Shown here: one piece after another, positions 2,714 through 32,841 of the stretch
Position numbering within the stretch: position 1 is the first letter of the stretch
Layout: every line of letters starts with the position of its first letter
NCBI GenBank assembly: GCA_022793095.1
Contig: JAAWCD010000128.1
Coordinates: 1 to 37,213, forward strand
DNA length: 37,213 nt
Direction of reading: 5' to 3'
Source: Oscillospiraceae bacterium
GTDB taxonomy: Bacteria > Bacillota > Clostridia > Oscillospirales > Oscillospiraceae
Notes under the pieces: generated by a model
What the model was told of the DNA's origin: nothing
Seen by the model: the letters and a program-made list of their open reading frames with translations, nothing else
Databases searched by the model: none
Made by a program: the position numbers and the translations under genes

Positions 2714-3622
2714 TCAATACAAGGGGTCGCCAAAGCCCTTGCGGGCGGGGTAGAGCGGGATGTTCTCAAATTCGGTGCAGCCGGGGGAGTAGGTGTGCTC
2801 CTCATCCAGGTGCTCATAGGGCTCCGGGGCCGGGACCGTATCCTGGACGGTCTGGATCACACTGATATCGTTGTGGGCCTGACGCAGGTCGGAGATCCCG
2901 CTGGCGGGCGGGCCGCTGCAATCGCCGATGCGGAGTTTCCCATCCATGTACTTGCGGAAACGGTCCTGTGCCCAGTTGGACTCATCGTAGCTGTCGCCGA
3001 TATCGGGGCACACCTGCTCGTGGAACCACCACCAACGACCGTTGCGGTAGACAAATTCCGAGCCGTAGCGTTCCCACAGCCAGCCGCCGGAGCGCCCGCC
3101 CTTGGGTCCGTGCATACTCAGCATAGTGCCGGGCGTCAGGTAAAAGCTGCGCGCTGATTTCCCGTCGTCCGCGACCTCGATGACGGAGGAGGCCAGCACA
3201 TGACAAGACTGCATATTGGTGCCCTTGGGGTTATGCCCATAGAGGTCGAACATGTCATACATGTCGCCCATTTTCATGGGTCGGTCGTGGTGGCGCTTGG
3301 AGGCGTTTTCAAAGGGCATACCGCCGTCCTCGTTTTCCGCACCCTCCGGCATGGTCATTCCGTGCGGCTCGTACTCCGGCGGCGCAAAGGGGTTGGCGCG
3401 TAATGGCTCGTCAAAATGAGCTGGAACAAGCTCCCGGTACCCCATCATGCGCCCGAAAGTATGGCCAAAGGTCGAATTGTCCGAGCGCAGCCAGAAGGTG
3501 CCGTATTCCTCGCGCCCGCGGTCCATCCCGTGGAGGTAGGCGTGGCGCGCCTTCAGCTCCTCTACCTTTTGGCAGGCGACGACTGCCGCCACACGCTCAT
3601 GTAAGGTCTTGTCCTTACGCAT
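2714..3622 (-). CDS. NTF2/SnoaL-like protein, family C, copy C1
   Basis: 302 residues, the longest family C member. The N-terminal helical part has EELKARHAYLHG and the GREEYGTFWLRSDNSTFGHT-type segment shared with C2. The central part carries the SnoaL-like core: SSVIEVADDGKSAR, then WLWERYGSEFV...GRWWWFHEQVCPD. It ends with a Pro/Glu-rich tail (YEHLDEEHTYSPG). The DG-x-S-A-R strand, the WERYG-x-(D/E)FV strand and the GxWWWxHEQVC strand are the conserved marks of this family in the window. Compared with C2 it has an extra Met/Gly-rich insert around residues 85-120. It is cytoplasmic, with no signal peptide, and is the last gene of a minus-strand operon starting with an ABC importer. The start at 3622 follows AAGGAGG. 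Fold assignment is fairly sure; reaction unknown. Confidence 0.8.
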   Translation of the reverse strand: MRKDKTLHERVAAVVACQKVEELKARHAYLHGMDRGREEYGTFWLRSDNSTFGHTFGRMMGYRELVPAHFDEPLRANPFAPPEYEPHGMTMPEGAENEDGGMPFENASKRHHDRPMKMGDMYDMFDLYGHNPKGTNMQSCHVLASSVIEVADDGKSARSFYLTPGTMLSMHGPKGGRSGGWLWERYGSEFVYRNGRWWWFHEQVCPDIGDSYDESNWAQDRFRKYMDGKLRIGDCSGPPASGISDLRQAHNDISVIQTVQDTVPAPEPYEHLDEEHTYSPGCTEFENIPLYPARKGFGDPLY

Positions 3623-3675
3623 TTTATTTTCCTCCTTATACCGATTGCCTGTGACGTGGTTTTCTGGATCTTCCC

Positions 3676-3705
3676 GTATTCCCCTCCCACAGGGCGGAGA
3701 AATAC
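3676..3705. repeat. GC hairpin of the local family (imperfect), between B1 and C1
   Basis: GTATTCCCCTCCC pairs imperfectly with GGGCGGAGAAATAC. It lies in the 111-base gap before C1. Its right half closely matches the hairpin at 22585-22619. Confidence 0.55.
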
Positions 3706-3733
3706 AGGTTTCCTTTCTAATGGAAGATTCACA

Positions 3734-4513
3734 TTACAGCATCTCAAGTCGCTCGTAGAATTTTCTGCCCACCTTACCGTTGGGGCCGTATCCCTCGTCC
3801 TCGTCATAGGTTTTGAAGGGCCGTGGCATATCGTAGAAGAGATACTCCCAGCCGAACTGATTGTCGTACACCTCTTTTTTTACGGTCGGGTCGCCATAAA
3901 AACGGGAGGCGGGGTCATATCCCTTTAGAACGGTGTCAACATCGTTGTAATTTGTACCGCTCTCAATGGAGAAATCGTGCTCCTGCACCACGTGCCAGAT
4001 CTTCCAGCCATCCGCCTCCCGTACGAGCTCTACCAGCAAAAGGCCGATCTCAAAGTAACACTTGGCGGTCCCGTCGGGTGAGCCATGCCCGGTCATACCC
4101 AGGTCATAGCCCAGGTAGCGGGCATACCGGTCATCCACGGAGATGAACAGCAGCGGCGTGGTGCAGGAGTGGGTGCGCGTCATCCCCATGCCCAGGCCAG
4201 CGTCTGCATATTTCTCGGGACAGGCGGCACGGAAGGCGTCCAGCGTCTTGCGCTCTATCGCCTCATACTCGTCTACCAGATGCCGGCGTACCTCCTCGAT
4301 CCCGACAAAAAAGCCGATATTGGTGGCAAAAGAGGCGTCGGCGGTATGGACGGGTTCCTTTACCCACAGCTCATTCAGCGCCCGGACCGTGTCGCCGTTG
4401 CCCCAGTACAGGACAAACCGGCCGATCAGGTCTTGGATTGTCTCCTTGTCCCAGGCGTGGAGGATCATCTCCTCGTCGGTAAATTCCCGCTTGTATTCCT
4501 TGAATTTTTCCAT
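3734..4513 (-). CDS. NTF2/SnoaL-like protein, family B, copy B1
   Basis: 259 residues, starting at the ATG at 4513 that follows AAGGAG (on the minus strand). An upstream in-frame ATG at 4639 would add 42 residues encoded by the repeat hairpin and is rejected. Family B marks: an early Trp helix (ILHAWDKETIQDL), ALNELWVKEP, ASFATNIGFFVGIEEVRRH, a central HSCTTPLLFI segment and the closing strand DGWKIWHVVQEHDFS. The layout, an N-terminal helical cone followed by a curved sheet ending in KIWH, fits the NTF2-like fold. It lies between A1 and C1 in the operon and is about 60% longer than single-domain NTF2 enzymes (about 130-170 aa) because of a C-terminal extension rich in Tyr/Asp/Pro. Catalytic residues cannot be assigned; the His before CTTPL is shared with B2 only. 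Confidence 0.8.
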   Translation of the reverse strand: MEKFKEYKREFTDEEMILHAWDKETIQDLIGRFVLYWGNGDTVRALNELWVKEPVHTADASFATNIGFFVGIEEVRRHLVDEYEAIERKTLDAFRAACPEKYADAGLGMGMTRTHSCTTPLLFISVDDRYARYLGYDLGMTGHGSPDGTAKCYFEIGLLLVELVREADGWKIWHVVQEHDFSIESGTNYNDVDTVLKGYDPASRFYGDPTVKKEVYDNQFGWEYLFYDMPRPFKTYDEDEGYGPNGKVGRKFYERLEML

Positions 4514-4690: not shown

Positions 4691-5416
4691 TCAAACGGCA
4701 TAGCTGAAGGTTTCGGCGAAGGCACCGTAGGGCACCGGGCATTGGGGAGAGGTGCTCTTCGGGCGGTCGGGATAGAATGGCGTAAACCCCCGGTCCTTTA
4801 CATTGGGCTCCGGGAGCCGGAAGGATTCGATCTCCTCAAAGCCAGGGACAGGCTCAAAGACCTTCTCCTCCTCGGTGAACCCTACGCCGCACTGGTGGTC
4901 GACGTTGAACAGCATCTGCATATGCCAAACCTTCCATGCGCCGTCCTCCAGGATGAAGTCCACGGCGGCCCAGCCAAACAGCCAGTAGGCCACCGGCCCG
5001 CCGGCGGTTAACTTACAGTAGGAGCCGCGGATGTTCCAGATGCCCTTGGCGGTCTTTTCGTCGTCCGCGATTTCGATGACCTGGGACTCAAAGGGGAGGT
5101 AGGTGATCATGCCGACGCCGTATACCTCCTCCGGCGTTTTGCCGCCCAGGGTCTGGGGGAACTTGGCCTGAATGAGCTTGGAGGACAGGGCGATCTCCTC
5201 GCCCAGGGCGGCGTAGTACCCCTTCACCGCATCCGCGCCGCGGTAGCCGCCGCGGTTGAGGAGGAGGCTGACATCCTCCCGGCGGCTCCAGTATCGCCAG
5301 TATACCTCGGCCTCCTGCTTGACGGAGTAGTCATGGGATATGCGGCCCATGATATTGCGGAGCTCACGGCGCCATTCCAGCCGTGAAAGCAGTTGTTCCG
5401 GTGTGAATTGTTTCAT
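4691..5416 (-). CDS. NTF2/SnoaL-like protein, family A, copy A1
   Basis: 241 residues. The start at 5416 follows CAGGAGGTTCTT; the longer open frame reaching 6163 is only the shadow of the next gene. Family A marks are WRRELRNIMGRISHDY (residues about 15-30), VYWRYWSRREDVSL, GGYRGADAVKGYYAAL, the core strand VIEIADDEKTAKGIWNIRGS, then DFILEDGAWKVWHMQ, and the C-terminus ETFSYAV. DFxxEDGxWKxWH is typical of SnoaL-like (PF13577-type) proteins, whose relatives include dehydratases and ring-hydroxylase small subunits. It is first of the A-B-C triad and lies downstream of an importer operon. It resembles A2 most closely by eye. Substrate unknown. Confidence 0.82.
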   Translation of the reverse strand: MKQFTPEQLLSRLEWRRELRNIMGRISHDYSVKQEAEVYWRYWSRREDVSLLLNRGGYRGADAVKGYYAALGEEIALSSKLIQAKFPQTLGGKTPEEVYGVGMITYLPFESQVIEIADDEKTAKGIWNIRGSYCKLTAGGPVAYWLFGWAAVDFILEDGAWKVWHMQMLFNVDHQCGVGFTEEEKVFEPVPGFEEIESFRLPEPNVKDRGFTPFYPDRPKSTSPQCPVPYGAFAETFSYAV

Positions 5417-5508: not shown

Positions 5509-6315
5509 TCAGCGGTTCCCTGAACGTTCCGTCTGCGCTCCCCGGTCCGTGGACAGCACCGCGTTTATCAGAAACACGGCCAGCAGCAACACGAGAAACC
5601 AGGGGGAGGCAAGGACCGTCAGGTCCTGCGCGTGGGCGCCGATCACCCGGATGCGCCCGGAGTTTGGCGCCTCGACCGTCCCCTGCCGGGTGATATGGCC
5701 GCGGATCAGCGTGAGCAGGGAGCCTTCGGTCGGATTTCCGGGCAGCTCCCCCTTGAGCGACGCCGGGAGGGCCGCAGTGATGGAGACGGACTGTCCGAGC
5801 TCCAGCGGCTGTCCGTCCACGGCAATGGAGACCACCCGTTCCCCCACGGCTGCCGTGGCGTCGGCGGTTATGGTGAACCCGGAAATCTGGAGAAATCCGC
5901 TGTAAGCCGAGGCGTCTCCGTCTAGGGTCTCCCGCTCCGACAGCCGCCAGAAGGACACGCTGTCCTCCATAAGGGCCTTGAGCTGCGGGGCTGTCAGGGT
6001 GCAGACATATACGGCCTCGTCCGCCCACAGCAGCTGGGCCAGCTCGGCCTCTGTAACACAGCCGCCCGCCAGGGTGTTTTTCAATACGCCCGAGGGGATG
6101 AGCGCGATCTGTGCCCCCGTGCCCTCCCGGACCGCGTCGGCCACATAGTCGCCCAGCGGGCATTCCCGCCAGAGGGCGTCCTCCATGGAGAGTCCCTGGG
6201 GGACCTGCGCCAGGACATTGTCCGTGGCGGACACGGGCATCTGCAAGATTGAGAGGAGCAGCAAGAGTCCCAGCAAACCAAGCGCACCCCTAAAGGTCGT
6301 TAATCTGGCGGACAT
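5509..6315 (-). CDS. Membrane-anchored orphan 5'-nucleotidase C-terminal domain protein
   Basis: 268 residues, starting at the ATG at 6315, which overlaps the end of the ATPase gene by 26 bases, so translation is probably coupled. It has an N-terminal signal/membrane segment ([17 protein letters not shown], residues 9-25), then a domain matching the C-terminal part of bacterial 5'-nucleotidases: [20 protein letters not shown], a [10 protein letters not shown] turn and [12 protein letters not shown] second membrane helix ([18 protein letters not shown]) is near the end, followed by a charged tail. The metallophosphatase domain that normally carries the catalytic metal site is absent, so it is probably not a nucleotidase by itself. 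The domain usually binds the nucleoside part of substrate. In this operon it could help surface processing or substrate capture for the importer; this is inference. Confidence 0.7.
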
Positions 6316-8293
6316 GATGGCACGCGACGAAATGATTGGGACGCACCTCCTCCTGGGCCGGCTGTTCCCTGGTACATATTTCCGTAGCGTAGGAACAGCG
6401 TCTGGCAAACCGGCAGCCCGGCTTGGGGTTCACAGGGCTCGTCAACTCTCCCTGCATGAGGATGCGTTCCCTTCTTTCGCGAATACTGGGGACGGGGACC
6501 GCGGACAGCAGTCCCTTGGTGTAAGGGTGTAGCGGGTACGTGAACAGCTCGTGGGACGCGCATTTCTCCACCATGCAGCCCACGTACATCACCATGATAT
6601 CGTCAGAGATGTGCCGGACGACGGACAAATCGTGGGTGATAAAGACATAGGTGAGATTTTTGGTGTCCTGAAGGTCCTGCAAAAGATTGAGCACCTGGGC
6701 CTGAATGGACACGTCCAGCGCCGAGACTGGCTCGTCGCACACGATGAACTTCGGCTCCAGGGCCAGCGCCCGGGCCACGCCGATACGCTGGCGGCGACCG
6801 CCGTCCAGCTCGTGGGGGTATGCGTAGGTGAGCCGCCTTGACAGGCCCACGGTGTCCATCAGCGCCGCCACCTGCCGCTCCAGCTCGGCCCTGTTTTTGC
6901 AGACCCTGTTGAACCGCAGGGGCGCCGCGATCTGCTCAAACACGCTTTTCCGGGGGTCCAGGGAGGAGAAGGGATCTTGGAAGATCATCTGCATTTCCGT
7001 CAGGAACATCCGGCGCTCCCGACCCTTCAGGTGGGTTACATCCTGCCCCTCAAACAGGACCTGACCGTCTGTGGCCTCGTTCAGGCCGATCAGCGCCCGC
7101 CCCAGCGTCGATTTTCCGCAGCCGGACTCACCGACGACGCCCAGCGTCCTGCCCCGCGCAATGGAAAAGGAAATATCGTCTACTGCGTGGAGCGGGCCGG
7201 CCTTGGTCTGAAAATATTTCTTCAGGTGGACAGCCTCCAGCAGGATTTCCGATGGCTCCCGCGCCTCTTGCGCAGATGCGGCGGGCGGAGCTACCTGCAC
7301 GGAAGGCGTCTCCGGTGTGCTCGTCTCCTGCAGCGCCTCTCCGGCGAAATGGCAGCGGCACATATGGCCGTTTTCCAGCTCGTGAAACGCCGGGTGGCTT
7401 TGTCGGCACTCCTCCCGGGCGTAGGGGCAGCGGGGATGGAAGGCGCACCCCTTCGGTAGGTCCGTGGGGTCGGGCATCAGGCCGTGGATGGGGATAAGGC
7501 GGCGGGCGTCCTTGTCCAGGGAGGGGAGGGAGTTGAACAGCCCCATGGTGTACGGGTGGGCGGTGTGCTCAAAAATGTGCTCCAAGGTGCCATATTCTAC
7601 GATCTCGCCGGAATACATGATGGCGACCTTGTCACACGCCTCCGCCACTACCCCCAGGTCGTGGGTAATGAGGAGCATGGCCGTGTGAAACTGCTCCCTC
7701 AGCTGGCGCATCATCGCCAGGACCTGCGCTTGAATGGTCACATCAAGCGCGGTGGTGGGCTCGTCCGCAATGATCAGCGAGGGCTGGCAGGCTAGCGCGA
7801 TGGCGATGACCACCCGCTGTTTCATGCCCCCGGAAAACTGGTGGGGAAAGTCGCCCGCCCGCTCACCGGGGATGCCGACCATCTCCAGCATTTCACGGGC
7901 TTTTGCCATGCTCTCAGCCTTGGTGCAGTCGTTGTGAAGAAAGTAAATCTCGGCGATCTGTTCCCCTACCGTCAGGACCGGGTTCAGGGCCGTCATGGGA
8001 TCCTGGAAGATCATGGATATCTCGTCGCCCCGCATGGCGCGCAGCTCCTCAGGGGACATTTCCATGACGTTCTTGCCTTTCAGGCATATCCTGCCCTGCC
8101 TGATCACGCCGGGGGGATCGGGGATGAGCCGCAGCACGCCCAGCGCCGTCGTCGTCTTGCCAGCGCCGGTCTCGCCCACAAGGCCCAAGGTCTCCCCCTC
8201 TTCGATGTCAAGGCTTACGTGATTCACGGCGTAGACCGTGCCATCCATGGTCCGGTACTCGATCACCAGGTCCCTGATCTCTAATATTTTCAT
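6290..8293 (-). CDS. Fused Dpp/Opp-type ABC importer ATPase (DppD-DppF fusion)
   Basis: 667 residues from the ATG at 8293, spaced 8 bases from GAGGAGG; a GTG at 8302 overlaps that site and is less likely. Two complete nucleotide-binding domains lie in tandem. The first has Walker A GETGAGKT (residues 40-47), signature FSGGMKQR, Walker [13 protein letters not shown] and switch THD. The second has Walker [10 protein letters not shown] (388-396), signature LDGGRRQR, Walker [13 protein letters not shown] and THD. Each ends with the OppF-type region containing spaced cysteines ([28 protein letters not shown]). It powers uptake through the DppB/DppC pair encoded just upstream. The signature serine is Asp in the second half (LDGGR), which I have the impression occurs in other clostridial homologues; function may be asymmetric. 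Confidence 0.92.
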
Positions 8294-8306
8294 TCCGCGC
8301 ACCTCC

Positions 8307-10186: not shown

Positions 10187-10218
10187 TTTTACGCATCTCC
10201 TATCCCGGACTTTGTAGC

Positions 10219-10236
10219 CTCCCCCTTCGGGGGGAG
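10219..10236. repeat. Short GC hairpin ahead of dppB-like gene
   Basis: CTCCCCC-TTCG-GGGGGAG is perfect with a stable UUCG-type tetraloop. It sits 33 bases upstream of the dppB-like start, in the leader region. Confidence 0.7.
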
Positions 10237-10436: not shown

Positions 10437-12104
10437 TTAACGAACGATGATCCTACGCAGATTGCAGGACTCGGGCATCACAACAGTCAGGTCCTTTACA
10501 ACGCCGTTGGCACCGAAACTATAGGCGCTCTCCCACTCGACGATGGGGATACAGTAGACGTTCTCCATGTTGAATTCCTGCATTTTGTCGTAGGAGGCGC
10601 GGCGCTCCTCAGTGGTAAAGCCGTTCATCGCCTCGGCCACAAGGGTGTTCCACTCCGCGTCAGTCTTGCGCAAGGCGGCAAGGTCGGTTCCGCTCCACAT
10701 ATTGGACATGGCGGTGGAGGGGTCGCCAGGGACGTTGGCGTTGTCATTGCCCAGGAACTGGAAGGCGGTGGAGCCGGGAGTCAGCCAGTACTGGATGCAG
10801 GTCATAACATCGTAGACCTGCAGATCGACGTTGAGACCGATCTGGCGCATCTGTTCCTGCCAGACCTCCGCCATGGGAGCCACGCCGGAATCGCAGATCA
10901 TGGGGAGCGTCAGGCCCTCATAACCCAAGTCCTTGACCATCTGCGCAGCAGCGGCGGGATCATAGGAGAAGGTATAGCCGGAGCTGCCGAAGGGGGTTGC
11001 CGTGGAGAACATGCCTTCCGGGGTCAGCGCCAGAGCGCCATAGCCCACAACGGCCATATCCCCGGTATTCGTCCCCAGGGCGATGGCTCTGCGCAGCTCC
11101 ACATCCTGCAACTCGGGGGTGTTGTCCACATCCATGACCAGCCAGACCACGGACTTGGTCGTGGACGCCACGGCAGTGCCCATAGAAGGATCGTTTGAGA
11201 TCTGGCTGTACTGCGTCTCGTTCAGGCCCAGCACCACATCCAGTACGCCATTCTGATAGTCCGCCAGCATGGTGGAGGAATCCGCGTAGGACTTGGTGAT
11301 GATCACGTCGGGCTGTGCCACCTGGTCGGCGGCGGAATCTACCTGCCACCAGTCGGCACGCTTTTCATAGGTGACGTGGTCGTCGGCAACATACTCGGTC
11401 ACCTGATAGGGGCCGGAGCCGCAGACCAGCTCGGGGTTGGTCCAGTCAAAGGTGTCGTTGCCGGCGTTGGCCGGGTCGGCCGATCCGCCGTGCTCCACGA
11501 TCCAGTCCACGTTCATGATCACCGCCGCCTCCAGCTTGACCTTCCAGTCGCCGCGATAGGAGTTCAGGGGGATCGTGGTGGTATAGCCGTCCACGGCGGC
11601 GTTATCAAAATCAAACATAGCATAGTCACCGGCCAGACGGGGATGACAGCCCTTGCGTTTCAGGGAGTAGAGCAGATCATAGCCGTCCATCTCCTCACCG
11701 TTGGAGAAAATTACGCCGGGTTTCAGCACCATAACAAGATTCTGCTGGGCGTCGTCGATGTAGAGTTCCTCCAGGATGTCGGAGTAGTAGTCGCTGGAGC
11801 CGTCCTCCATGACCTCCATGCGGACCAAAGTGTCAAAGGCCAGGTATCCGGCGGGGAGGGCCAGTTGGTCGTTGGCCAACTGGCACATATCAAACACGCC
11901 TACAAAACGCGGGTAGGTGGCGCCGACGGTAACGGTAACAGGGCCGTCATTGCCTGTGGGCGCATCCGTTGCCGATCCGGCGGAGTCCGGTGCCGAGCCG
12001 GACGGAGGGGCGGCGGAGGAACCGGGGTCGCCAGGGCCGCCGCAGGCAGCCAGCAGCGACAGGCACATGACCAGCGCAAGCAGCATAGCTAAAAACTTTT
12101 TCAT
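10437..12104 (-). CDS. Lipoprotein solute-binding protein of Dpp/Opp type (importer 1)
   Basis: 555 residues from the ATG at 12104 (upstream in-frame codons fall in the hairpin). Lipoprotein signal: MKKFLAMLLALVMCLSLLAAC, lipid-bearing Cys at 21, followed by a Gly/Pro/Ser linker to about residue 50. The mature part has the family 5 binding-protein layout: LKPGVIFSNGEEMDGYDLLYSLKR (the usual V-x-F-x-x-G-x-x-x-x-x-x-D-V strand), a SGPYQVTEYVADDHVTYEKR segment, and a hinge-and-lobe pattern with VELRRAIALGTN. It delivers substrate outside the membrane to DppB/DppC. It is first in the operon; the divergent LysR gene lies 257 bases away across a marked palindrome. Peptide specificity is not implied: members of this family bind many ligands. 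Confidence 0.93.
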   Translation of the reverse strand: MKKFLAMLLALVMCLSLLAACGGPGDPGSSAAPPSGSAPDSAGSATDAPTGNDGPVTVTVGATYPRFVGVFDMCQLANDQLALPAGYLAFDTLVRMEVMEDGSSDYYSDILEELYIDDAQQNLVMVLKPGVIFSNGEEMDGYDLLYSLKRKGCHPRLAGDYAMFDFDNAAVDGYTTTIPLNSYRGDWKVKLEAAVIMNVDWIVEHGGSADPANAGNDTFDWTNPELVCGSGPYQVTEYVADDHVTYEKRADWWQVDSAADQVAQPDVIITKSYADSSTMLADYQNGVLDVVLGLNETQYSQISNDPSMGTAVASTTKSVVWLVMDVDNTPELQDVELRRAIALGTNTGDMAVVGYGALALTPEGMFSTATPFGSSGYTFSYDPAAAAQMVKDLGYEGLTLPMICDSGVAPMAEVWQEQMRQIGLNVDLQVYDVMTCIQYWLTPGSTAFQFLGNDNANVPGDPSTAMSNMWSGTDLAALRKTDAEWNTLVAEAMNGFTTEERRASYDKMQEFNMENVYCIPIVEWESAYSFGANGVVKDLTVVMPESCNLRRIIVR

Positions 12105-12165
12105 TTTCTTCTCCCTTTCTCCTGGCCCATCCAGACAGAGTCCAGACCTGAAATTTTGCCTTTTG

Positions 12166-12204
12166 CTGTACGGTCCCCGCCTCGCAGGGGCGGGTGCCGT
12201 ACAG
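12166..12204. repeat. GC hairpin in the leader of importer 1
   Basis: CTGTACGG-CCCCGCC pairs with GGGGCGGG-CCGTACAG, with only one or two bulged bases. It lies 62 bases upstream of the binding-protein start on the minus strand, so probably in its 5' untranslated region. Confidence 0.75.
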
Positions 12205-12247
12205 ATACTCTCTGGATAGAGCACTCCGTTTATGATTTGCGGCAGTC

Positions 12248-12285
12248 GTCAAACCGGTGCCGCATATATCCGGCGCCGGTTTGAC
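12248..12285. promoter_or_regulatory. Palindromic operator between importer 1 and LysR1
   Basis: The arms 12248-12262 and 12271-12285 (GTCAAACCGG...CCGGTTTGAC) are complementary at 14 of 15 positions around an eight-base AT-rich centre. The right arm overlaps the -35 box of the LysR1 promoter (TTGACA 12281-12286) and the left arm gives TTGACG on the other strand. This is the expected place for a regulator controlling both divergent genes, probably LysR1 itself; binding is inferred. Confidence 0.6.
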
Positions 12286-12309
12286 AGCGCAGAATATCTG
12301 TGGTATTAT
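12281..12309 (+). promoter_or_regulatory. Sigma-70-type promoter for LysR1
   Basis: TTGACA (12281-12286), a 17-base spacer and TATTAT (12304-12309), ahead of the LysR gene at 12362, which has its own GGAGGAGG ribosome site. The match to consensus is very good. Confidence 0.75.
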
Positions 12310-12361
12310 ATATTGGGTAGATGTACCATCACATAACCTATATTTGCGGAGGAGGCCGACT

Positions 12362-13402: not shown

Positions 13403-13442
13403 AGGGACAGGAGTATGGCCTGAAAGCTATACCCCTGTCCCC
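13403..13442. terminator. Two-way terminator between convergent LysR genes
   Basis: GGGACAGG (13404-13411) pairs with CCTGTCCC (13434-13441), with further imperfect pairing inside (GTATGGCC / GCTATAC). The right arm overlaps the last codons of LysR2. Oligo-A and T-rich bases at 13380-13402 could provide the U-run for the minus direction. Confidence 0.6.
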
Positions 13443-14296: not shown

Positions 14297-14339
14297 ATGT
14301 CCATCCCCTATCACTCAAGTATAGTTCCTCGGGGAGCTG

Positions 14340-22648: not shown

Positions 22649-23662
22649 ATGGAACAGGACGTCATCCTTGAAGTCAAGGACCTTAAAACCTACTTTTACA
22701 ACCACGGTCGGGAGCTGCGCGCAGTAGATGGCCTGTCCTACCAGGTACACCGGGGGGAGTGCGTGGCCATCATCGGGGAATCCGGTTCGGGAAAGACCGT
22801 CAGCGCCCTGTCCATCCTGCGGCTGATCTCCTATCCACCGGGGCTGGTTATGGGCGGACAGGTGCTGTTCAAGGGACGGGATCTGCTGAAGATGAACGAT
22901 GAGGAGTACCGTAGAATCCGCGGCAAGGAGATCAGCATGATTTTTCAGGAGCCCTCCGCCGCCCTCAACCCGGTGGCAACCATTGGGGACCAGATTGTGG
23001 AAAACATCCTGCTCCACAGCAACGTGAAACGGGAGGAGGCCAGGCAGCGCGCTGTGGAGCTGCTGGCCGAGGTAGGCATCCCTAACGCCCAGGAGCGGGT
23101 GAAACAGTACCCCTTCGAGTTTTCCGGCGGGATGCAGCAGCGGGCCATGATCGCGATGGCCATGAGCTGCGGCCCGGATGTGCTCATCGCCGACGAGCCT
23201 ACCACCGCCCTGGATGTGACCGTCCAGGCCCAGGTGCTGGAGCAGCTCAACAGGCTGCGCCAGTCCCGAAATATGGCGCTGCTGATCATCACCCACAACC
23301 TGGGCGTGGTGGCCCGGTACGCCGACTCGGTAAAGATCATGTACGGCGGCAAGATCGTGGAGGACGGCAGTGTGGAGGACGTGTTCCTCCGCCCCGCCCA
23401 CCCCTACACACTGGGCCTGATCCGGGCGGTGCCCCGGCTGGATCTGCCCCGGACCCACGGCCTGCACACTATTGAAGGGGAGCCGCCGGATATGTCCAAA
23501 ATTGGACCGAACTGCTGCGCGTTCCATCTGCGGTGCGCCTATGCCGACGAACAGTGCCAGAACTGCCGGCCGCCCCTGGAGCAGGTGGGAGACGACCATT
23601 TCTGCGCCTGCCACCACAGGGACTTGCTGGATGAAGAACGCAAGGAGGTGCTGATGGAGTGA
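22649..23662 (+). CDS. Dpp/Opp-type ABC importer ATPase, DppD-like (importer 2)
   Basis: 337 residues, one nucleotide-binding domain: Walker A GESGSGKT (about 42-49), Q-loop MIFQEPSAALNP, signature FSGGMQQR, Walker [13 protein letters not shown], switch ITHN (Asn in place of the usual Asp after His). A C-terminal OppD/F region has CCAFHLRCAYADEQC and CACHH cysteines. The ribosome site is AGAGGGGCGGAG. It overlaps the DppF-like gene by four bases (GTGA). Together these two separate ATPases replace the single fused protein used by importer 1. Confidence 0.93.
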   Translation: MEQDVILEVKDLKTYFYNHGRELRAVDGLSYQVHRGECVAIIGESGSGKTVSALSILRLISYPPGLVMGGQVLFKGRDLLKMNDEEYRRIRGKEISMIFQEPSAALNPVATIGDQIVENILLHSNVKREEARQRAVELLAEVGIPNAQERVKQYPFEFSGGMQQRAMIAMAMSCGPDVLIADEPTTALDVTVQAQVLEQLNRLRQSRNMALLIITHNLGVVARYADSVKIMYGGKIVEDGSVEDVFLRPAHPYTLGLIRAVPRLDLPRTHGLHTIEGEPPDMSKIGPNCCAFHLRCAYADEQCQNCRPPLEQVGDDHFCACHHRDLLDEERKEVLME

Positions 23663-24708
23663 GCCAGAAACTGAATTTCTATGAAATGCCCGGCGCGCCT
23701 GAGCGCAGGCTGGACAATATCCTGGACCTGGACGATATTATGTACGTCGAAAATCTGAAAATGCACTTTCCCGTGACCAGGGGCCTGCTGAAACGAGAGG
23801 TGGGCACGGTGAAGGCGGTGGACGGCGTAAGTTTCCACATCAAGCGCAGCCAGACCCTGGGCATCGTGGGCGAGTCCGGCTCGGGCAAGTCCACCATCGG
23901 CAACTGCCTGCTGCGCAACCTGAACATCACCTCCGGGAACATCTACTATGAGGGCCACAACATGAATGACCTGAACAGGCGCAGCCTTCAAAAGATGCGG
24001 AAAAATTTACAGATGATCACCCAGGACCCCTTTGCCTCCCTGGACCCCCGGATGAACATCATGGACGTGGTGTCGGAGGGGCTGAAAATCCATCACGTGC
24101 TGGACAACAAGGCAGAGCTGTACGACTTTGTGGTGCGCCAGTTGGAGATGGTGGGTATCAACCCGGATTTCCGGTTCCGCTACCCCCACGAGTTCTCCGG
24201 CGGCCAGCGCCAGCGTATCTCCATCGCCCGCGCCCTGGCCCTCCAGCCCAACTTTATCGTGTGCGACGAGGTGGTATCCGCCCTGGACGTGTCCATCCAG
24301 GCGCAGATCGTGAACCTGCTGATGAAACTTCAAGAGAACATGAAACTCACCTATGTGTTCATCGGCCACGATCTGTCCGTCGTGCGCTACATCTCCAACC
24401 AGGTTGCCGTGCTCTATCTGGGCAAGGTGATGGAGCTGACCGACTCCGACGAGCTCTACGACCATCCTTTGCACCCTTACACCCAGGCGCTGATCTCGGC
24501 GGCCCCCATCCCCAACCCGGTGGTGGACCGCGCCCGGGAGCGTATTCTGCTGGAGGGGGAGATCCCCTCCCCTATCAACCCGCCCAAGGGCTGTAATTTC
24601 TGCACCCGCTGCAAGTATGCGGACGAGCGCTGCCGTACCGAGGAGCCGAAAATGGTAGACGTGGGCGGAAATCATCTGGTGGCCTGCCACCGTGTCGCCG
24701 GAGCTTGA
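23659..24708 (+). CDS. Dpp/Opp-type ABC importer ATPase, DppF-like (importer 2)
   Basis: 349 residues with a GTG start overlapping the previous stop. An N-terminal extension of about 25 residues comes before the domain. Walker A is GESGSGKST, Q-loop MITQDPFASLDPR, signature FSGGQRQRI (unlike the LDGGR of importer 1's second half), Walker B FIVCDEVVSALD and switch IGHD. The usual Pro in D-E-P is Val here (DEVVSALD) and the switch His is preceded by Gly, both unusual but compatible with function. The C-terminal cysteines (CNFCTRCKYADERC) are kept. The next gene starts 13 bases after its stop, behind GAGGAGGGAG. Confidence 0.92.
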   Translation: MSQKLNFYEMPGAPERRLDNILDLDDIMYVENLKMHFPVTRGLLKREVGTVKAVDGVSFHIKRSQTLGIVGESGSGKSTIGNCLLRNLNITSGNIYYEGHNMNDLNRRSLQKMRKNLQMITQDPFASLDPRMNIMDVVSEGLKIHHVLDNKAELYDFVVRQLEMVGINPDFRFRYPHEFSGGQRQRISIARALALQPNFIVCDEVVSALDVSIQAQIVNLLMKLQENMKLTYVFIGHDLSVVRYISNQVAVLYLGKVMELTDSDELYDHPLHPYTQALISAAPIPNPVVDRARERILLEGEIPSPINPPKGCNFCTRCKYADERCRTEEPKMVDVGGNHLVACHRVAGA

Positions 24709-24721
24709 GGAGGGAGCTATT

Positions 24722-25675
24722 ATGGGTAAGTATTTTGTAAAGCGCGTCCTCCTGCTGATTCCCACGATCCTGCTGGTGTGCGTGATTGTATTCATCCTGA
24801 TGCGCATGGTTCCCATGGACGCGGTGGCCGTGCTGCAGAATAAGCTCAGCGCCAATGGTAACTACGTGGACGAAGACTATGTACGCGCCTTGCTGGGGCT
24901 GGATGTCCCGGCAGTCCAGCAGTTTTTCACCTGGATCGGCGGCGTGCTCCAGGGCGACCTAGGCACCTCCTTCTTTGACCACGCCACCGTGAACAGCATC
25001 CTGGCCCGGAAACTGCCGGTCACCCTGGAGCTGGGCATCCTCTCGCTCATCATCACCAACATAATCTCCATCCCCCTGGGCCTGTTCTGCGCGGCACGGC
25101 AGGATTCCATCTCTGACTACACCATCCGCGTTTTCAGCACAGTCCTCATCGCCATGCCGGTGTTCTGGGTGGCTACCATGGTGCTGATCTACCCCAATCT
25201 GTGGTGGGGCTGGGCTCCTGCGGTCTCCTACGTCCCATTTTTCGAGGACCCGCTGGAAAATCTATCCATGTTCCTGCTGCCCGCCGTCATTTCCGCCATC
25301 GGACAGTCTGGCATTCAGATGCGGACCATCCGCACAATGACGCTGGAGGTCATGCGGCAGGATTACATCCGCACCGCCTGGGCTAAGGGCGTACCGGAGC
25401 GCCAGGTGCTGTTCAAGTACGCCTTCCGCAACTCCATGATCCCCATCATCACCATGATCGGCGGCTCTGTGGCCATGATGATCGGCGGCAATGTGGTGAT
25501 GGAAAACATCTTTAACATCCCTGGCCTGGGGCAAGCCCTGGTCAGCGCGCTCAACTCCCGGGACTACCCTATTGTACAGGGCTGCGTGCTGGTGCTCTCG
25601 CTCTTCGTTATGTGCATTAACTTGCTGGTGGACTTGGCATACAAGTGGATCGACCCGAGAGTAACTTTGGATTAA
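24722..25675 (+). CDS. Dpp/Opp-type permease, DppB-like (importer 2)
   Basis: 317 residues from the ATG at 24722 after GAGGAGGGAG; an in-frame start at 24692 lies in the previous gene and is rejected. First helix VLLLIPTILLVCVIVFIL then MRMVPMDAV, which corresponds to the FMPGDP loop but lacks the Gly-Asp. A long outside loop, further helices, an EAA-type loop AKGVPERQVLFKYAFRNSMIP, and the end YKWIDPRVTLD. It forms the channel with the next gene. Confidence 0.92.
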   Translation: MGKYFVKRVLLLIPTILLVCVIVFILMRMVPMDAVAVLQNKLSANGNYVDEDYVRALLGLDVPAVQQFFTWIGGVLQGDLGTSFFDHATVNSILARKLPVTLELGILSLIITNIISIPLGLFCAARQDSISDYTIRVFSTVLIAMPVFWVATMVLIYPNLWWGWAPAVSYVPFFEDPLENLSMFLLPAVISAIGQSGIQMRTIRTMTLEVMRQDYIRTAWAKGVPERQVLFKYAFRNSMIPIITMIGGSVAMMIGGNVVMENIFNIPGLGQALVSALNSRDYPIVQGCVLVLSLFVMCINLLVDLAYKWIDPRVTLD

Positions 25676-25688
25676 GGGGGCGGAAATT

Positions 25689-26663
25689 ATGAGAAACAGA
25701 GCTGCACCTCCCGGCCGCGCGCCAGAGAAAGGGCATTTCTTTGCGGAGCTGGCCCGGAAAAAGCCCCTGGGCATGGTGGGGCTGATTATCCTGGTGGCGG
25801 TGCTTTTCATCGCCATTTTCGCGGACGTGATCGCGCCCAGCCCCATGGTGGACGGCGTGCTCCAGACCAGCATTCTGAACAAGCTCCAGTCCCCGTCGGC
25901 CGAGCACCTTCTGGGGACGGACAATCTGGGGCGGGACGTGCTCTCCTACCTGATCTATGGCGCACGCACCTCGGCCATTCTGGGCATCTGCTGCACACTG
26001 CTCAGCGTCGCCATTTCGGTGCTGATTGGCACGCTGTCCGCCGTGATCGGCGGCTGGTTCGACCTACTGATCCAGCGTATTGTGGACGCGTTCCAGTGCA
26101 TCCCATCCATGCTCATCCTGCTGATCCTGATGAATATGCTGGGCAGCGGCCTGCCACAGCTGATCTTCGCCATGTCGGTACCCGGTGGCATCACCGGCTC
26201 CCGGATGATGCGCTCGGCGGCCATTTCCGTCAAGGACTCCGGCTATGTCAAGAGCGCGGCGCTGCTGGGTGGGGGCACCATGTGGAAGACCTTCCGCCAC
26301 GTCATCCCCAACATCCTGCCCCTCATCATCACCAACGCGGCCAGTTCCCTGGGCGGTGTGATCCTGATGGAGGCGTCGCTGAACTTCCTGGGCTACGGCG
26401 TGGACCCCGGCACGCCCTCCTGGGGCTACATGATCACCAACCAGGGAAAGGCGAATATGTTCGTCATGCCGATGCTCGCGGTCTATCCTGGTCTGTGCAT
26501 CGCTATCATGGTATTTGGCGCCACGATGTTCGGCGATGCTGTGCGCGACCTGCTGGACCCCAGACTGAAAGGCGGCGTGGGCACTTACAATTCCAAAAAG
26601 CTGATGAAGATCGCGGCGAAGATGTCCGTCAAGTATCACTATGAAGATCCGTGTGCGCTGTGA
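25689..26663 (+). CDS. Dpp/Opp-type permease, DppC-like (importer 2)
   Basis: 324 residues. First helix GMVGLIILVAVLFIAIFADVIAP, loop HLLGTDNLGRDVLSYLIYGAR, then helices with the coupling loop at AALLGGGTMWKTFRHVIPN. It closes with VRDLLDPRLKGGVG plus about 20 extra basic residues (SKKLMKIAAKMSVKYHYED) beyond the normal end. Last gene of the importer 2 operon; the solute-binding protein is not in this operon but lies about 1.7 kb downstream with its own promoter. Confidence 0.92.
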   Translation: MRNRAAPPGRAPEKGHFFAELARKKPLGMVGLIILVAVLFIAIFADVIAPSPMVDGVLQTSILNKLQSPSAEHLLGTDNLGRDVLSYLIYGARTSAILGICCTLLSVAISVLIGTLSAVIGGWFDLLIQRIVDAFQCIPSMLILLILMNMLGSGLPQLIFAMSVPGGITGSRMMRSAAISVKDSGYVKSAALLGGGTMWKTFRHVIPNILPLIITNAASSLGGVILMEASLNFLGYGVDPGTPSWGYMITNQGKANMFVMPMLAVYPGLCIAIMVFGATMFGDAVRDLLDPRLKGGVGTYNSKKLMKIAAKMSVKYHYEDPCAL

Positions 26664-28404: not shown

Positions 28405-30210
28405 ATGAAAACTCATCGCAAGCTGACCGCGCTGGGCCTGTCGCTGGCCATGGCGTGCGCACTGCTGGCCGGATGCGGCCCCACGGGGAACCAACCGGCT
28501 GCCGACGGAAACTCCCCCGCGCCCGGTACCGCAGCTCCTTCCACCCCTGCCGCCCCCGACGCCCCCACCACTCCCACCGACACCGGCGAGCCTGTCTACG
28601 GCGGGTCCATCACCATGTATTGGAATGACGACATTGATACATACTTTGACCCCGCCATCGGCGACACCGTGTCCTGGAACCTGTTCCTGGAGGGCCTGTG
28701 GTCCTACGACGTGACCTCTGGCCATGCCGCCATCGACGACAACGTGCCCGGCGCGGCCCTGAAGGGCCAGCTGGCCGAGTCCTGGACAGTGGACGAGGCC
28801 GCCGCCACCCTGACCGTCACCCTGCGGGACGACGTGCACTTCCAGCGGCTGGACGACCAGTACGACTACTACGGCGGCCGCCAGCTGGTGGCCGGCGACG
28901 TCAAGTGGACCTATGACCGCCTGTGCGGCATCGGCTCGGGCTACGACGCCCCGCTGGAGACCGAGTCCAACTGGGCCCGCAACCTGGCGATGCTCGTCTC
29001 TGTGGACGCCCCCGACGATCAGACCGTCGTGTTCCACCTGACCTCCGGCGACGAAGTGACCATCGAGAGCTTTATGAACCAGTTTGTGAAGATCGGCGGG
29101 CCTGAGTGGGATACCCTGACCGACGATCAGAAGTCCGACTACCACTACTGCTGCGGTACCGGCCCCTTCCTTCTCAGCGAGATCGAGGCCGGACAGCGGG
29201 TGGTCCTGACGAGGAACGACGACTACTACGACTACGACGTCCGCTACCCCGATAACAAGCTGCCCTATCTGGATCAGATCACGGTGCTCTATATCGCCGA
29301 CTCCACCAACATCGTGACCCAGTTCACCTCGGGCAATCTGGACCTGTTCGGCTCCAGCAAAACCAACCTGATCAACGACTCGGAGGCCGCCCAGATCGCC
29401 GCCTCCGGCATGGCCTACTACGTAAACTCCGTGGCCAGCTCCCAGCCCGAATTCCTTGTTATGAAGTGCAACCAGAAACCCTTTGACGATATCCGCGTGC
29501 GTCAGGCCATGCAGCTGGCCATCGACATGAACACTATCCACTCGGCCTACCTGAACCTGGAGGGCGACATGGTGCTCTCCGGCCTGTGGAACCCCGTCAC
29601 CACCGAGTGGTCCACCGTCTCCGGCTGGCCCCAGGAGCTGCTGGACTCCTACAGCTACGACCCCGAGCGGGCAAAGGCCCTGCTGGCGGAGGCCGGTTAC
29701 GCCGACGGCCTGACCTTCGACGCCGTCATCACCAGCGAGAACGACGCCGACCTGTGGGCCCTCGCCGCCGAGTACTGGAACGCCGTGGGCATCAAGGTCA
29801 ACCTGGAGGTCGTCAGCAACTTTATGGAGGCCAAGACCATCGGCAACAACGCCGACGACCCCCGCAGCATGGCCTCCGCCGGCGCGGGCGCCGTGGCCTC
29901 CATTCAGGCGGCGTTCAACCAGACCGTGGACGGCGGCTGGGCCGCCGGTATGTGGAACGGCGACGCGGCTTACACGGAGCTCTTCCAGAACATGATGTCC
30001 GCCACCTCCCTGGCTGACCAGGAGCGGATGGCCAAGGAGGCCGACCAGATGTACGCGGAGGGCCACTGGACCGTCAACCTGACCGGCATGAGGGCGCTGA
30101 ACTACTTCTACAACGCCCGCGTCGACGGGATCCCCGACAACTGCTCCATCTACAGCGGCAAGGCCGCCAGCACCCTGCTGTCCGGTATGTGGGTGACCGA
30201 CGCCCAATAG
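28405..30210 (+). CDS. Lipoprotein solute-binding protein of Dpp/Opp type (importer 2)
   Basis: 601 residues. Lipoprotein signal with LLAGC and lipid Cys at 24, then a Pro/Thr/Ala-rich linker to about residue 60. The mature protein starts YGGSITMYWNDDIDTYFDPA and follows the family 5 layout: TLTVTLRDDVHFQRLDDQYD, then GTGPFLLSEIEAGQRVVLTRNDDYYDYD, and VRQAMQLAIDMNTIHSAYLN. It is very acidic and rich in Tyr/Asp near the ligand region. It has a consensus promoter of its own and a terminator after it, so it is probably made in excess of the importer 2 membrane parts. Compared with the binding protein of importer 1 it is 46 residues longer and only distantly similar, so the ligands are likely different. 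Confidence 0.93.
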   Translation: MKTHRKLTALGLSLAMACALLAGCGPTGNQPAADGNSPAPGTAAPSTPAAPDAPTTPTDTGEPVYGGSITMYWNDDIDTYFDPAIGDTVSWNLFLEGLWSYDVTSGHAAIDDNVPGAALKGQLAESWTVDEAAATLTVTLRDDVHFQRLDDQYDYYGGRQLVAGDVKWTYDRLCGIGSGYDAPLETESNWARNLAMLVSVDAPDDQTVVFHLTSGDEVTIESFMNQFVKIGGPEWDTLTDDQKSDYHYCCGTGPFLLSEIEAGQRVVLTRNDDYYDYDVRYPDNKLPYLDQITVLYIADSTNIVTQFTSGNLDLFGSSKTNLINDSEAAQIAASGMAYYVNSVASSQPEFLVMKCNQKPFDDIRVRQAMQLAIDMNTIHSAYLNLEGDMVLSGLWNPVTTEWSTVSGWPQELLDSYSYDPERAKALLAEAGYADGLTFDAVITSENDADLWALAAEYWNAVGIKVNLEVVSNFMEAKTIGNNADDPRSMASAGAGAVASIQAAFNQTVDGGWAAGMWNGDAAYTELFQNMMSATSLADQERMAKEADQMYAEGHWTVNLTGMRALNYFYNARVDGIPDNCSIYSGKAASTLLSGMWVTDAQ

Positions 30211-30470: not shown

Positions 30471-31271
30471 TCAGACCCATTCGTTGTGCCCGATGGAATA
30501 GGTGTTGTCGTCATCCAGCGTGTCGTAGGGCCTGGGCGTCTCCCAGATCAGGTGCTGGACCTCCTGGTTGACGTCGTAGCGCCGGCTCAGGGGGCCGGGG
30601 TCGGTGACCTGGCAGGGACAGCCGCGCCAGGTATCGTAATCAGGGTCTTTCTCGTGCTGCTCATAGAGCTCGCGGGCGAAGTTGCCGTTGTCAAAGGGCT
30701 GGGCAAACACCGGGACCACGTGCTCGTGGATATATTTCCACTCGCCCTCGTGGTAGATGAAATCCGCGCCGTAGTACTCCCAGGAGGCCGCGCCGCCCCG
30801 GACATAATCCTCCGCCCTGGGCGGCTCCTTCGGGCCGCCGGGACCGCCCGGACCGCCGGGGCCAAACTTGCGGCGGCCCAGCGCGGCCATCATGACCCCC
30901 GCCGTGATGGCCCAGCAGCGGCCGGACCTGCCGTCCCGCGCCATCTCGATGCACAGCTCGGACAGGGCGTGGACGCCGCTGGCCCCGATCGACCGGGGGT
31001 CGCCGCCCATGTAAGACGGAAATGCCTCGCCCAGCTGGAAGGTCTCCTCCGCCGCGCGGGACTCCTCGTCGATGGTGTGGTTGTGATAGATCTGGCGGAA
31101 CCCGACCATGCGGCCGAAGTTGTGGCCCCAGGTGGAGTTTTCGCCCTTGAACCAGATCTTGTCAAACTCCTCCCGCTCATAGGCGATGCAGTGGACGTAG
31201 GCGTGGTAGACTTTTTTCCGCTCGATCTCCTGTGTGCCAATGGCGTTGTGGAGGCGCTCCTTGAACGTCAT
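30471..31271 (-). CDS. NTF2/SnoaL-like protein, family C, copy C4
   Basis: 266 residues; its ATG overlaps the B4 stop by one base (TGATG). Family C features: IERKKVYHAYVHCIAYEREEFDKIW, STWGHNFGRMVG, LCIEMARDGRSGRCWAITAG, WEYYGADFIYHEGEWKYIHE, HVVPVFAQPFDNGNFAR. The WERYG motif has become WEYYG and HEQVC has become HEHVV. An unusual loop GPGGPGGPGGPKEPP (about residues 140-155) is inserted before the WEYYG strand. The ending, TLDDDNTYSIGHNEW, aligns with HLDEEHTYSPG of C1. It is the most diverged C copy, but order and length are preserved. Confidence 0.8.
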   Translation of the reverse strand: MTFKERLHNAIGTQEIERKKVYHAYVHCIAYEREEFDKIWFKGENSTWGHNFGRMVGFRQIYHNHTIDEESRAAEETFQLGEAFPSYMGGDPRSIGASGVHALSELCIEMARDGRSGRCWAITAGVMMAALGRRKFGPGGPGGPGGPKEPPRAEDYVRGGAASWEYYGADFIYHEGEWKYIHEHVVPVFAQPFDNGNFARELYEQHEKDPDYDTWRGCPCQVTDPGPLSRRYDVNQEVQHLIWETPRPYDTLDDDNTYSIGHNEWV

Positions 31272-32092
31272 CACATATCCCTCATTTCTCTGACATAGTA
31301 CGGCATACCCATGCAGCCCTCCGGGCCATAGCTGTAGTTGGGATTGAAGGAGTAGTAGGGGCGGGGCATATCCTGATAGAGATACTGCCAGCCGAAGAAG
31401 GGGTCGTAGACCGTGCGCTCCACGGTGGGGGTGCCCAGCTCGTCCCGCAGGTAGGAGTTGTCGGGGTCCTCGTGGCCCAGTTTCGGGCCGTTCTGGCCGG
31501 TGGTCCCGAACTCGTCCCTCCACATGGGGTATTCCGCGTAGTCCCTCCCGGCGGGGATGGCGTGGTCGTTGGTGAGGATCAGGTGCCAGATCTTCCACGC
31601 GCCGTTCTCCTTCAGCAGGTCCGCGTAGACCAGGCCGAACATGAACCGGCAGTCCGCCGTGCCGTCCGGGCTGCCCACGGCGCGCACGCCCTGCACATAA
31701 CACATATAGCGGGCGGTCTTGCCGTCCTCGGCGATGTAGAGCAGGGGGGAATAGGCGGCGCTGTGGTTCAGGATGCCCATGCCCAGATGGAATTTGTCGC
31801 AGGGGAGGGCGGGGTCGGCGTCGCAGAAGGGCTTGAGCTGGGCGTACCGCAGGTCGCTGAGCTGCACCACGTAGTAGTTGGAGATCTCGTCCATCCCGGT
31901 GTAGAAACCGGTGTTCACGCCCAGGGAGGCATAGCGGCGGTTCTGGGGCAGGCTGACCCACAGATCGGTCAGCTCCTGGCGGCGGAGATCTCCGGCGTAG
32001 CAATAGAAATGCTTGGACATGACCTGTTTCACGTTTTCGTAGTCCCACAGGCGCTCTACCAGTTCGTCATCGGAAAAAAACTGCTTTGCCAT
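31271..32092 (-). CDS. NTF2/SnoaL-like protein, family B, copy B4
   Basis: 273 residues from the ATG at 32092 behind AAAGGAGG; the frame upstream to 32356 lies inside A4 and is rejected. Features: VERLWDYENVKQVMSKHFYC, RQELTDLWVSLPQNRRYASL, GVNTGFYTGMDEISNYYVVQ, NHSAAYSPLLYIAEDGKTAR, NGAWKIWHLILTNDHAI. The central HxCTTPL of B1/B2 is here NHSAAYSPL, so the His is kept but the Cys-Thr-Thr is not. The ending has Tyr/Pro-rich repeats (FFGWQYLYQDMPRPYYSF), as in B1 (FGWEYLFYDMPRPFKTY). That tail motif FGW-x-Y-(L/I)-x-x-D-M-P is a good family mark. Confidence 0.82.
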   Translation of the reverse strand: MAKQFFSDDELVERLWDYENVKQVMSKHFYCYAGDLRRQELTDLWVSLPQNRRYASLGVNTGFYTGMDEISNYYVVQLSDLRYAQLKPFCDADPALPCDKFHLGMGILNHSAAYSPLLYIAEDGKTARYMCYVQGVRAVGSPDGTADCRFMFGLVYADLLKENGAWKIWHLILTNDHAIPAGRDYAEYPMWRDEFGTTGQNGPKLGHEDPDNSYLRDELGTPTVERTVYDPFFGWQYLYQDMPRPYYSFNPNYSYGPEGCMGMPYYVREMRDM

Positions 32093-32109
32093 GGTTGGAC
32101 CTCCTTTCA

Positions 32110-32841
32110 TCACAGTCCGTAGCTGAAGGTTTCCGCAAAGGTCTCGTAGGGGACGGGGTAGGCGGGGGGCGCGCAGAAGGGTCGGTCCGCCCGGTAGGTC
32201 TCGTAGACCGTGACCTTCACGTTGGGCTCGGGGGGCTGAAAGTCCCGCACCGCCGCAAAGACGGGGTCGTCGGCGTAGGCCGGCGCGGCCTCGGCCCAGC
32301 TGGTGCCCGCGGGCGCGTCCAGGTCCTGGACATACAGCAGGTGCCAGACCTTCCACTGCCCGTCCTCCCGCACGAAGTCCGCCGCCGCGTACGCCCGCTC
32401 CCAGCAGCCCACCTGGCCCGCGGGGGTCAGCTTGGTGTTCATTCCGTGGACCGTCCAGATGCCCTTTGCGGTGGCGCCGTCCCCGGCGATCTCGATCACC
32501 GGCGCGACCAGGCTCTTCATATCCATGACGCCCGCACCGTACACCTGATCCTCCGTCATTCCGGCCAGCCGGCCCGGATACTTCTCCTGGATCAGCCGGC
32601 TTTCCAGCCTGGTGCGCGCCTCAAGGCCCAGATAGTAGCTCTTTACCGCCTCCGCGCCCTGGTAGTAGCCGTTGTTTACGCCCAGGCACACATCGGCGGC
32701 TTTGGACCAATAGGCGGCGTACATCCTGTTTTCCCTGCGCATCAGATAGTCCTCAGAGAAGAAACGGACCATCAGGTTCTGCAGCTCCCGCCGTTTCTCC
32801 CACCTGTCCAGCAGCTGTTCCGAATTCAATCGACAAGACAA
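32110..32841 (-). CDS. NTF2/SnoaL-like protein, family A, copy A4
   Basis: 243 residues using a TTG start at 32841, seven bases from AAGGAAG. The open frame goes back to 32970, but those codons have no ribosome site and the other A copies are 241-244 residues long. Features: WEKRRELQNLMVRFFSEDYL, AAYWSKAADVCLGVNNGYYQ, GAEAVKSYYLGL, VIEIAGDGATAKGIWTVHG, AADFVREDGQWKVWHLLY, and the ending ETFAETFSYGL. YWSRREDV of A1/A2 is YWSKAADV. It is the first gene of the fourth triad and is transcribed away from the AraC gene. Confidence 0.8.
   Translation of the reverse strand: MSCRLNSEQLLDRWEKRRELQNLMVRFFSEDYLMRRENRMYAAYWSKAADVCLGVNNGYYQGAEAVKSYYLGLEARTRLESRLIQEKYPGRLAGMTEDQVYGAGVMDMKSLVAPVIEIAGDGATAKGIWTVHGMNTKLTPAGQVGCWERAYAAADFVREDGQWKVWHLLYVQDLDAPAGTSWAEAAPAYADDPVFAAVRDFQPPEPNVKVTVYETYRADRPFCAPPAYPVPYETFAETFSYGL

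Follow-up and report, generated by a model that had tools for sequence, protein, structure and literature searches.

The window analysed here is the whole 37,213-nucleotide (nt) contig JAAWCD010000128.1 of an Oscillospiraceae bacterium (assembly GCA_022793095.1), which is contig C115 of a 3.16-Mb genome in 130 contigs with a completeness of 96.7%. It carries twelve genes for SnoaL-like proteins, which fall into three families (A, B and C) and are arranged in four operons, each with the order A-B-C along the direction of transcription (Table 1). This arrangement had been proposed in an earlier sequence-only reading of the same DNA and was borne out by the open reading frames (ORFs), by their coordinates, by the identities within families and by a joint tree. 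When the four copies of the window and a fifth triad of the same genome were compared, the proteins shared 34-53% identity in family A, 28-50% in family B and 28-49% in family C, values which indicate that the sets diverged long ago. The identity of A1 to the B and C proteins was 16-23%.

The motifs by which that reading had defined the families hold as trends, but several of them are looser than it gave, with exceptions in A1, A2, B2, C1, C3 and C4. In family A, A1 has DEKTAKG and ends in ETFSYA, and A2 has WRIWH and ends in DTFSYG. B2 carries the variant FGWEYIYYDMP. Regarding family C, C1 has WERYGSEFV, the HEQVC motif is replaced by SQHVC in C3 and by HEHVV in C4, and the latter protein also departs in DGRSGR and WEYYGADFI. 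The Pfam family SnoaL_4 (PF13577), against which all twelve proteins were to be checked, was matched above its curated cut-off of 24 bits by five of them and below it, although with E ≤ 0.003, by a further six, while C4 gave no match at E ≤ 0.01. A scan of ten of the triad proteins (A3 and C3 left out) against NCBIfam returned no relevant family.

Chance similarity or a local artefact was rejected in view of the identical gene order in independent genomes, and so were decaying duplicates, given ratios of nonsynonymous to synonymous substitutions (dN/dS) of 0.09-0.41 in nine pairs. A phage origin was also rejected, as C2 matched no phage record; this protein does match two plasmid records, from Streptomyces and Rhizobium, at less than 30% identity.

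Table 1. Coordinates of the triad genes and of other features annotated in the window (aa, amino acids; the fifth column gives the residue aligned with His97 of the enzyme LdpA)
Feature	Position	Strand	Description	Residue at LdpA-H97 column	Basis of name
A1	4691..5416	-	SnoaL-like, family A, 241 aa	Leu	
B1	3734..4513	-	family B, 259 aa	His	
C1	2714..3622	-	family C, 302 aa	His	
A2	14559..15284	+	family A, 241 aa	Ile	
B2	15299..16075	+	family B, 258 aa	His	
C2	16092..16916	+	family C		
A3	19043..19777	-	family A, 244 aa	Arg	
B3	18269..18940	-	family B, 223 aa, short form	His	
C3	17435..18253	-	family C, 272 aa, GTG start	His	
A4	32110..32841	-	family A, 243 aa, TTG start	Lys	
B4	31271..32092	-	family B, 273 aa	Ser, not His	
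C4	30471..31271	-	family C, 266 aa	His	
Solute-binding protein	10437..12224	-	family 5 (PF00496), ATP-binding cassette (ABC) uptake system 1		domain scan
Two permeases	9197-10312 and 8307-9200	-	ABC uptake system 1, clusters 5 and 6		reading of the sequence
Fused double ATPase	6290..8302	-	ABC uptake system 1, 670 aa, cluster 3		reading of the sequence
5'-nucleotidase C-terminal domain protein	5509..6408	-	PF02872, between transporter and A1		domain scan
LysR-type regulator	12257..13339	+	divergent from ABC uptake system 1, cluster 4		reading
LysR-type regulator	13427..14314	-	divergent from triad 2, cluster 4		reading
Two ATPases and two permeases	22649..26663	+	ABC uptake system 2, between triads 3 and 4, clusters 3, 5 and 6		reading
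Solute-binding protein	28405..30210	+	family 5 (PF00496), system 2		domain scan
AraC-type regulator	32919..34310	+	HTH_18, divergent from triad 4		domain scan

Recurrence and common history of the triads

Named genomes were scanned with a peptide pattern taken from the C profile, which yielded 70 loci, a collection that is seeded on C. All the scanned loci lie in metagenome-assembled genomes called Oscillospiraceae, Ruminococcaceae, Lachnospiraceae, Eubacterium or Clostridiales Family XIII, and the record titles of several relatives' genomes name the rumen, red deer or roe deer omasum. With separate A, B and C profiles, 70 distinct complete A-B-C triads were recovered from 61 of 74 loci, the window and contig C72 of the same genome included (profile coverage above 80%, gaps of at most 350 nt; the B profile was built without B homologues longer than 300 aa). 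These triads include close orthologues, and merging those with at least 90% identity in A and C leaves 64, or 47 when 80% is applied. The genes are tightly spaced, the median gap being 8 nt for A-B and -0.5 nt for B-C when measured from profile starts, not start codons.

Eight genomes were searched independently with the three families and gave 47 strong matches to A, 46 to B and 47 to C (cut-offs of about E ≤ 1e-60, 1e-49 and 1e-47, respectively; a split B match on G094:C69 was entered as one). They form 50 runs, 44 of which are A-B-C; the remaining six comprise three runs at contig ends, the A-C pair of the present genome, one run with a partial C and one with a diverged B. Just under the cut-off there were an A-like match at G032:C60:17279-17824 (3.8e-48) and a C-like match at G032:C60:18869-19648 (7.7e-45), and counting both would lengthen two runs there to A-A-B-C and B-C. 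The highest load was found in this same genome, G032, with 13 complete triads in 3.1 Mb. The A-B-C order, which the sequence-only reading proposed to seek in other gene neighbourhoods, does therefore recur and is a conserved module. It is also a patchy one, since C-family genes were present in 8 of the 150 genomes of a family sample at E ≤ 1e-25, the genome studied here among them, and in one of the 291 genomes of a class sample at E ≤ 1e-40, which was this genome itself.

The trees of A, B and C obtained from the 70 triads agree with one another, the Mantel r being 0.77 for A-B, 0.82 for A-C and 0.89 for B-C (observed values reached in 0 of 2000 permutations). Pairs of trees have 36-45 of 67 splits in common, and only 1-4 of 37-39 well-supported splits are in conflict. 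Each of the three families is a single clade in a joint tree of 238 sequences (support 0.96 for A, 0.77 for B and 1.0 for C); the few other sequences inside these clades are, by score, members of incomplete triads, and more distant SnoaL relatives fall outside them. This tree holds 26 extra sequences. Fourteen are the A, B or C proteins found in incomplete triads, another one (L029_4012) has no letter at the column of LdpA His97, and 11 are other relatives. As L053 and L089 are a single gene in overlapping loci, there are ten distinct non-triad relatives; three of them come from L030 and three from L032, and these two sets correspond closely to each other. Matching topologies had been named beforehand as the mark of whole-triad duplication; their agreement, together with the single clade of each family, supports that whole triads were duplicated together. 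The simplest history suggested by the trees would be one triplication, followed by the copying of whole triads.

Some loci hold further genes of this kind. C is tandemly duplicated inside one triad of L081 (7992-9677), which thus reads A-B-C-C. In L030 (4345-6035) and L032 (1401-3094), A-B-C is directly preceded by three more consecutive SnoaL-like genes, each of which has a histidine at the LdpA-H97 column, and these rows are possibly a second kind of triad. The linear plasmid of Streptomyces sp. NBC_01450 (L112, 2827-5699) likewise has SnoaL-like frames in a row, four in this case, whose scores against A, B and C are nearly the same and which therefore do not belong to any of the three families. 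Taken with the extra genes of L030 and L032, this array suggests that multi-paralogue SnoaL sets may be wider than the triads.

Fold, relation to LdpA and the histidine column

A, B and C are all SnoaL/NTF2-like. Their sole credible sequence relative in the Protein Data Bank (PDB) is LdpA, the erythro-diguaiacylpropane-diol gamma-formaldehyde lyase (PDB 8abt, 8abu, 8abv and 8abw), with profile E-values of 3.4e-8 for A, 1.2e-4 for B and 9.6e-6 for C; entry 8abv was recognised as LdpA through passages of PMC11476836 and the PDB titles. The predicted model of C2, with a predicted local distance difference test (pLDDT) score of 81, had LdpA as its best match, and scytalone dehydratase, LinA and BaiE were near the top. 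LdpA also came first for the model of A2 (pLDDT 67), which was built from six sequences and gave weaker matches for this reason. The view that the three families are one fold was thus upheld, and they share their closest relative; the evidence comes from models and sequence for A and C, and from sequence only for B.

The likeness to LdpA extends to the NTF2-type fold, to a similar length and to the His97 position, which is retained in C. As differences, Tyr35 of LdpA is a histidine in C, and 69 of the 70 A proteins have no equivalent of His97. In passages of PMC12997858 and PMC11323797, LdpA is described as an NTF2-family enzyme whose substrate is first dehydrated to a quinone methide, with formaldehyde being lost afterwards, and its homologue PcfL as opening a phenylcoumaran with formaldehyde loss. 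According to the same passages, both are single enzymes of sphingomonads, whereas the triads consist of three paralogues per operon in herbivore-gut Clostridia. BaiE, the bile-acid 7alpha-dehydratase of Clostridium scindens, has a lower fold similarity than LdpA and gave no match in the sequence profile searches; it is one protein of 19.5 kDa, in contrast to the three proteins of 223-302 aa in fixed order that make up a triad. The PDB chains of scytalone dehydratase and LinA are shorter, with 142-164 residues, and to our knowledge no triad has been reported for either enzyme. A second SnoaL_4 gene of the bai operon is baiI, as given in a passage of PMC10382948.

A catalytic role of His97 is suggested by the title of PDB entry 8abu, NaLdpA mutant H97Q in complex with erythro-DGPD. 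The invariant histidine of family C (His105) is aligned with His97 by the C profile, and a global alignment concurs. At this column a histidine is present in all 70 C proteins, in 53 of the 70 B proteins and in a single A protein, Lys or Arg being found in 41 of the 70 members of A; after thinning to 47 triads, the counts are 47 for C, 34 for B and 1 for A. Since nine of the ten distinct non-triad relatives have a histidine there, the simplest explanation is that A lost it. Nevertheless A is not decaying, as indicated by dN/dS values of 0.11-0.22 in three A pairs, which are rough because the proportion of synonymous differences (pS) is 0.52-0.60. Other invariant residues of C are E21, H27, H31, E39, E149 and Y151. 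These residue patterns make C the probable catalytic subunit, with A as a partner that is probably non-catalytic. A tail of the PxPYxT...SY type is common to the three families and is likewise found at the end of the single-gene relative on contig C59 of this genome; therefore, it probably predates the triplication.

Accompanying genes and possible function

Neighbouring genes were called as the longest open frames, so that those hidden by antisense frames were missed and the counts are lower bounds; cluster names come from the scan of one representative per cluster, or from reading. OYE-type reductase genes occur at least 34 times, in 30 of the 74 loci, the expectation being about 7 (from 176 matches in 22 Mb of eight genomes), a rough figure owing to unequal thresholds and to near-copies among the loci. 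Their representative has Oxidored_FMN and FAD domains and is closest in the PDB to NCR and 2,4-dienoyl-CoA reductase. Such a gene lies on the locus of 28 of the 70 triads, and there are 16 direct adjacencies, nine upstream and seven downstream. At genome level, OYE-family matches amount to 49 in the 3.1 Mb of G032 (13 triads), 39 in G060 and 20 in the present genome. A FAD_binding_2 cluster, whose representative is related to flavocytochrome c fumarate reductase and to ketosteroid dehydrogenases, was found in 14 loci. Binding proteins are on the loci of 28 triads and importer ATPases also on those of 28, and regulators of the LysR, AraC and PucR types accompany 23, 16 and 7 triads, respectively. 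Importers, OYE-type reductases and flavoproteins are the set that would be expected for uptake, elimination and reduction. A passage of PMC10382948 offers a case of a SnoaL_4 dehydratase working with such oxidoreductases, that of BaiE with BaiCD and BaiH. A 604-aa protein with a right-handed beta-helix match was also observed (L062, 9041-10855), its cluster being present in 8 of the 74 loci.

In attention to these results, we propose that the co-duplicated A, B and C proteins of each operon assemble into one heteromer, likely pseudo-threefold, which would act as a cofactor-free lyase or dehydratase with C as the likely catalytic and A as the probably non-catalytic member; we give this reading an even chance. 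BaiE, LinA and scytalone dehydratase are homotrimers, which makes a pseudo-threefold A-B-C trimer attractive. A and B would complete the oligomer and shape the pocket, and the histidine of C would be the acid-base catalyst, expelling either water alone, on the model of BaiE, or water and then formaldehyde, on the model of LdpA. The substrate would be a phenolic or otherwise activated plant-derived molecule reacting via a quinone-methide-like or dienone intermediate. It would enter through the oligopeptide-type ABC importers nearby, and the OYE-type ene-reductases that lie beside part of the triads would reduce the C=C bond so formed, with different triads serving different substrates. The substrate is the weakest step of this proposal: the deer and rumen hosts of several relatives make plant phenolics plausible, and lignin- or lignan-type dimers as such are somewhat unlikely substrates. 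The fullest form of the proposal is that obligate A-B-C heterotrimers, with A non-catalytic and C catalytic, arose from a triplicated homomeric LdpA-like enzyme and constitute a system, duplicated in series to as many as 13 cassettes in a genome and independent of oxygen, that attacks a range of lignan dimers, dimers derived from lignin or other phenolics of plants in herbivore-gut Oscillospiraceae. We consider this form unlikely.

Several observations weigh against the heteromeric lyase. Co-duplication and operon coupling show co-inheritance and not, by themselves, physical contact, and contig C17 of the same genome carries an A-C pair without B, which implies that the three partners are not always needed. 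The histidine is missing from 17 of the 70 B proteins and from 69 of the 70 A proteins so, if they are enzymes, A and B must mostly use other residues. The identity to LdpA in structure alignments is only about 17-20%, the Foldseek TM-scores (template modelling scores) against it are modest (0.42-0.54), and H27 of C stands where LdpA has Tyr35, a tyrosine which is also present in nine of the ten relatives; the reaction may therefore differ from that of LdpA. With respect to the reductases, an OYE gene is directly adjacent to only 15 of the 70 triads, none was found in the window, and in this genome, with its five triads, such a gene directly adjoins the fifth alone.

That A-C pair, together with the set of invariant polar residues proper to each family and the replacement of the histidine in 17 B proteins, as specialised enzymes might show, would suit a different arrangement in which each of the three proteins is a homomeric enzyme of its own, the three catalysing successive steps (e.g., isomerisation, dehydration and deformylation) on one substrate and merely sharing an operon. 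We regard it as somewhat unlikely, given the near-fixed 1:1:1 ratio in the eight genomes, the very tight spacing and the fact that nearly all A proteins are without the probably ancestral histidine and yet conserved. Whether heteromeric or separate, a dehydratase set might instead resemble the bai pathway in acting on compounds of steroid or terpenoid type (bile acids, plant sterols, saponins), and not on lignin or lignan phenolics. This option appears quite improbable, as BaiE ranks below LdpA when either model is used in a fold search and no PDB protein other than LdpA is a credible relative by sequence. The triads could also be non-catalytic proteins for ligand binding or sensing that store or present a transported solute, since NTF2 folds act as binding scaffolds too, A is nearly always without the histidine, and importers and regulators adjoin the triads. 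However, His27, His31, His105, Glu39, Glu149 and Tyr151 are kept in all 70 C proteins, as expected of a catalytic pocket, and redox enzymes lie on the loci of part of the triads, which makes a purely binding role highly improbable.

The fold and the probable chemistry of the triads are already known. Among the matches listed from the open-licence literature, no title or opening of an abstract describes a SnoaL system of three paralogues, and hence none describes an operon in which they keep a fixed order, A mostly is without the histidine and the whole is copied as cassettes. A passage of PMC10066034 states that the fate of lignin in anaerobic settings such as herbivore guts is largely unknown and that the lignin-modifying enzymes characterised are mostly reliant on oxygen. 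In this regard, a probably cofactor-free, oxygen-independent family related to LdpA, with many copies in rumen and deer gut bacteria, provides named and expressible genes for the anaerobic lignin question. If the heteromeric lyase proposed above is true, the triads would show clearly how a homomeric enzyme can become a complex of three paralogues, one of which has lost the catalytic residue, and how such a set can then be copied entire as a cassette, and this complex would help in the breakdown of plant compounds without oxygen.

Neighbourhood of the triads in this genome

Triad 1 is located directly behind an oligopeptide-type ABC importer (system 1) and a small 5'-nucleotidase C-domain protein, all on the same strand (Table 1). 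In the 299-aa frame of the latter, the 5'-nucleotidase C-terminal domain is the only Pfam domain. An IS110-family transposase (20639-21580, minus strand) lies between triad 3 and the second importer and looks truncated, as its second domain is in frame only at PF02371 positions 3-29. Ahead of importer 2 there is a 211-aa protein with no Pfam family (21913-22548, plus strand); a gene family of the same length (cluster c45) adjoins triads in L028 and L029 and may be related to it.

Outside the window, the fifth complete triad, on contig C72, is directly beside a 664-aa OYE-type NADH:flavin oxidoreductase, and the A-C pair on contig C17 is adjoined by another importer and a cupin. This cupin (L022, 6993-8357) has a long glycine-proline tail and stands directly ahead of the pair. 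Finally, the lone related gene on contig C59 stands beside a flavoprotein of the fumarate-reductase-like cluster.

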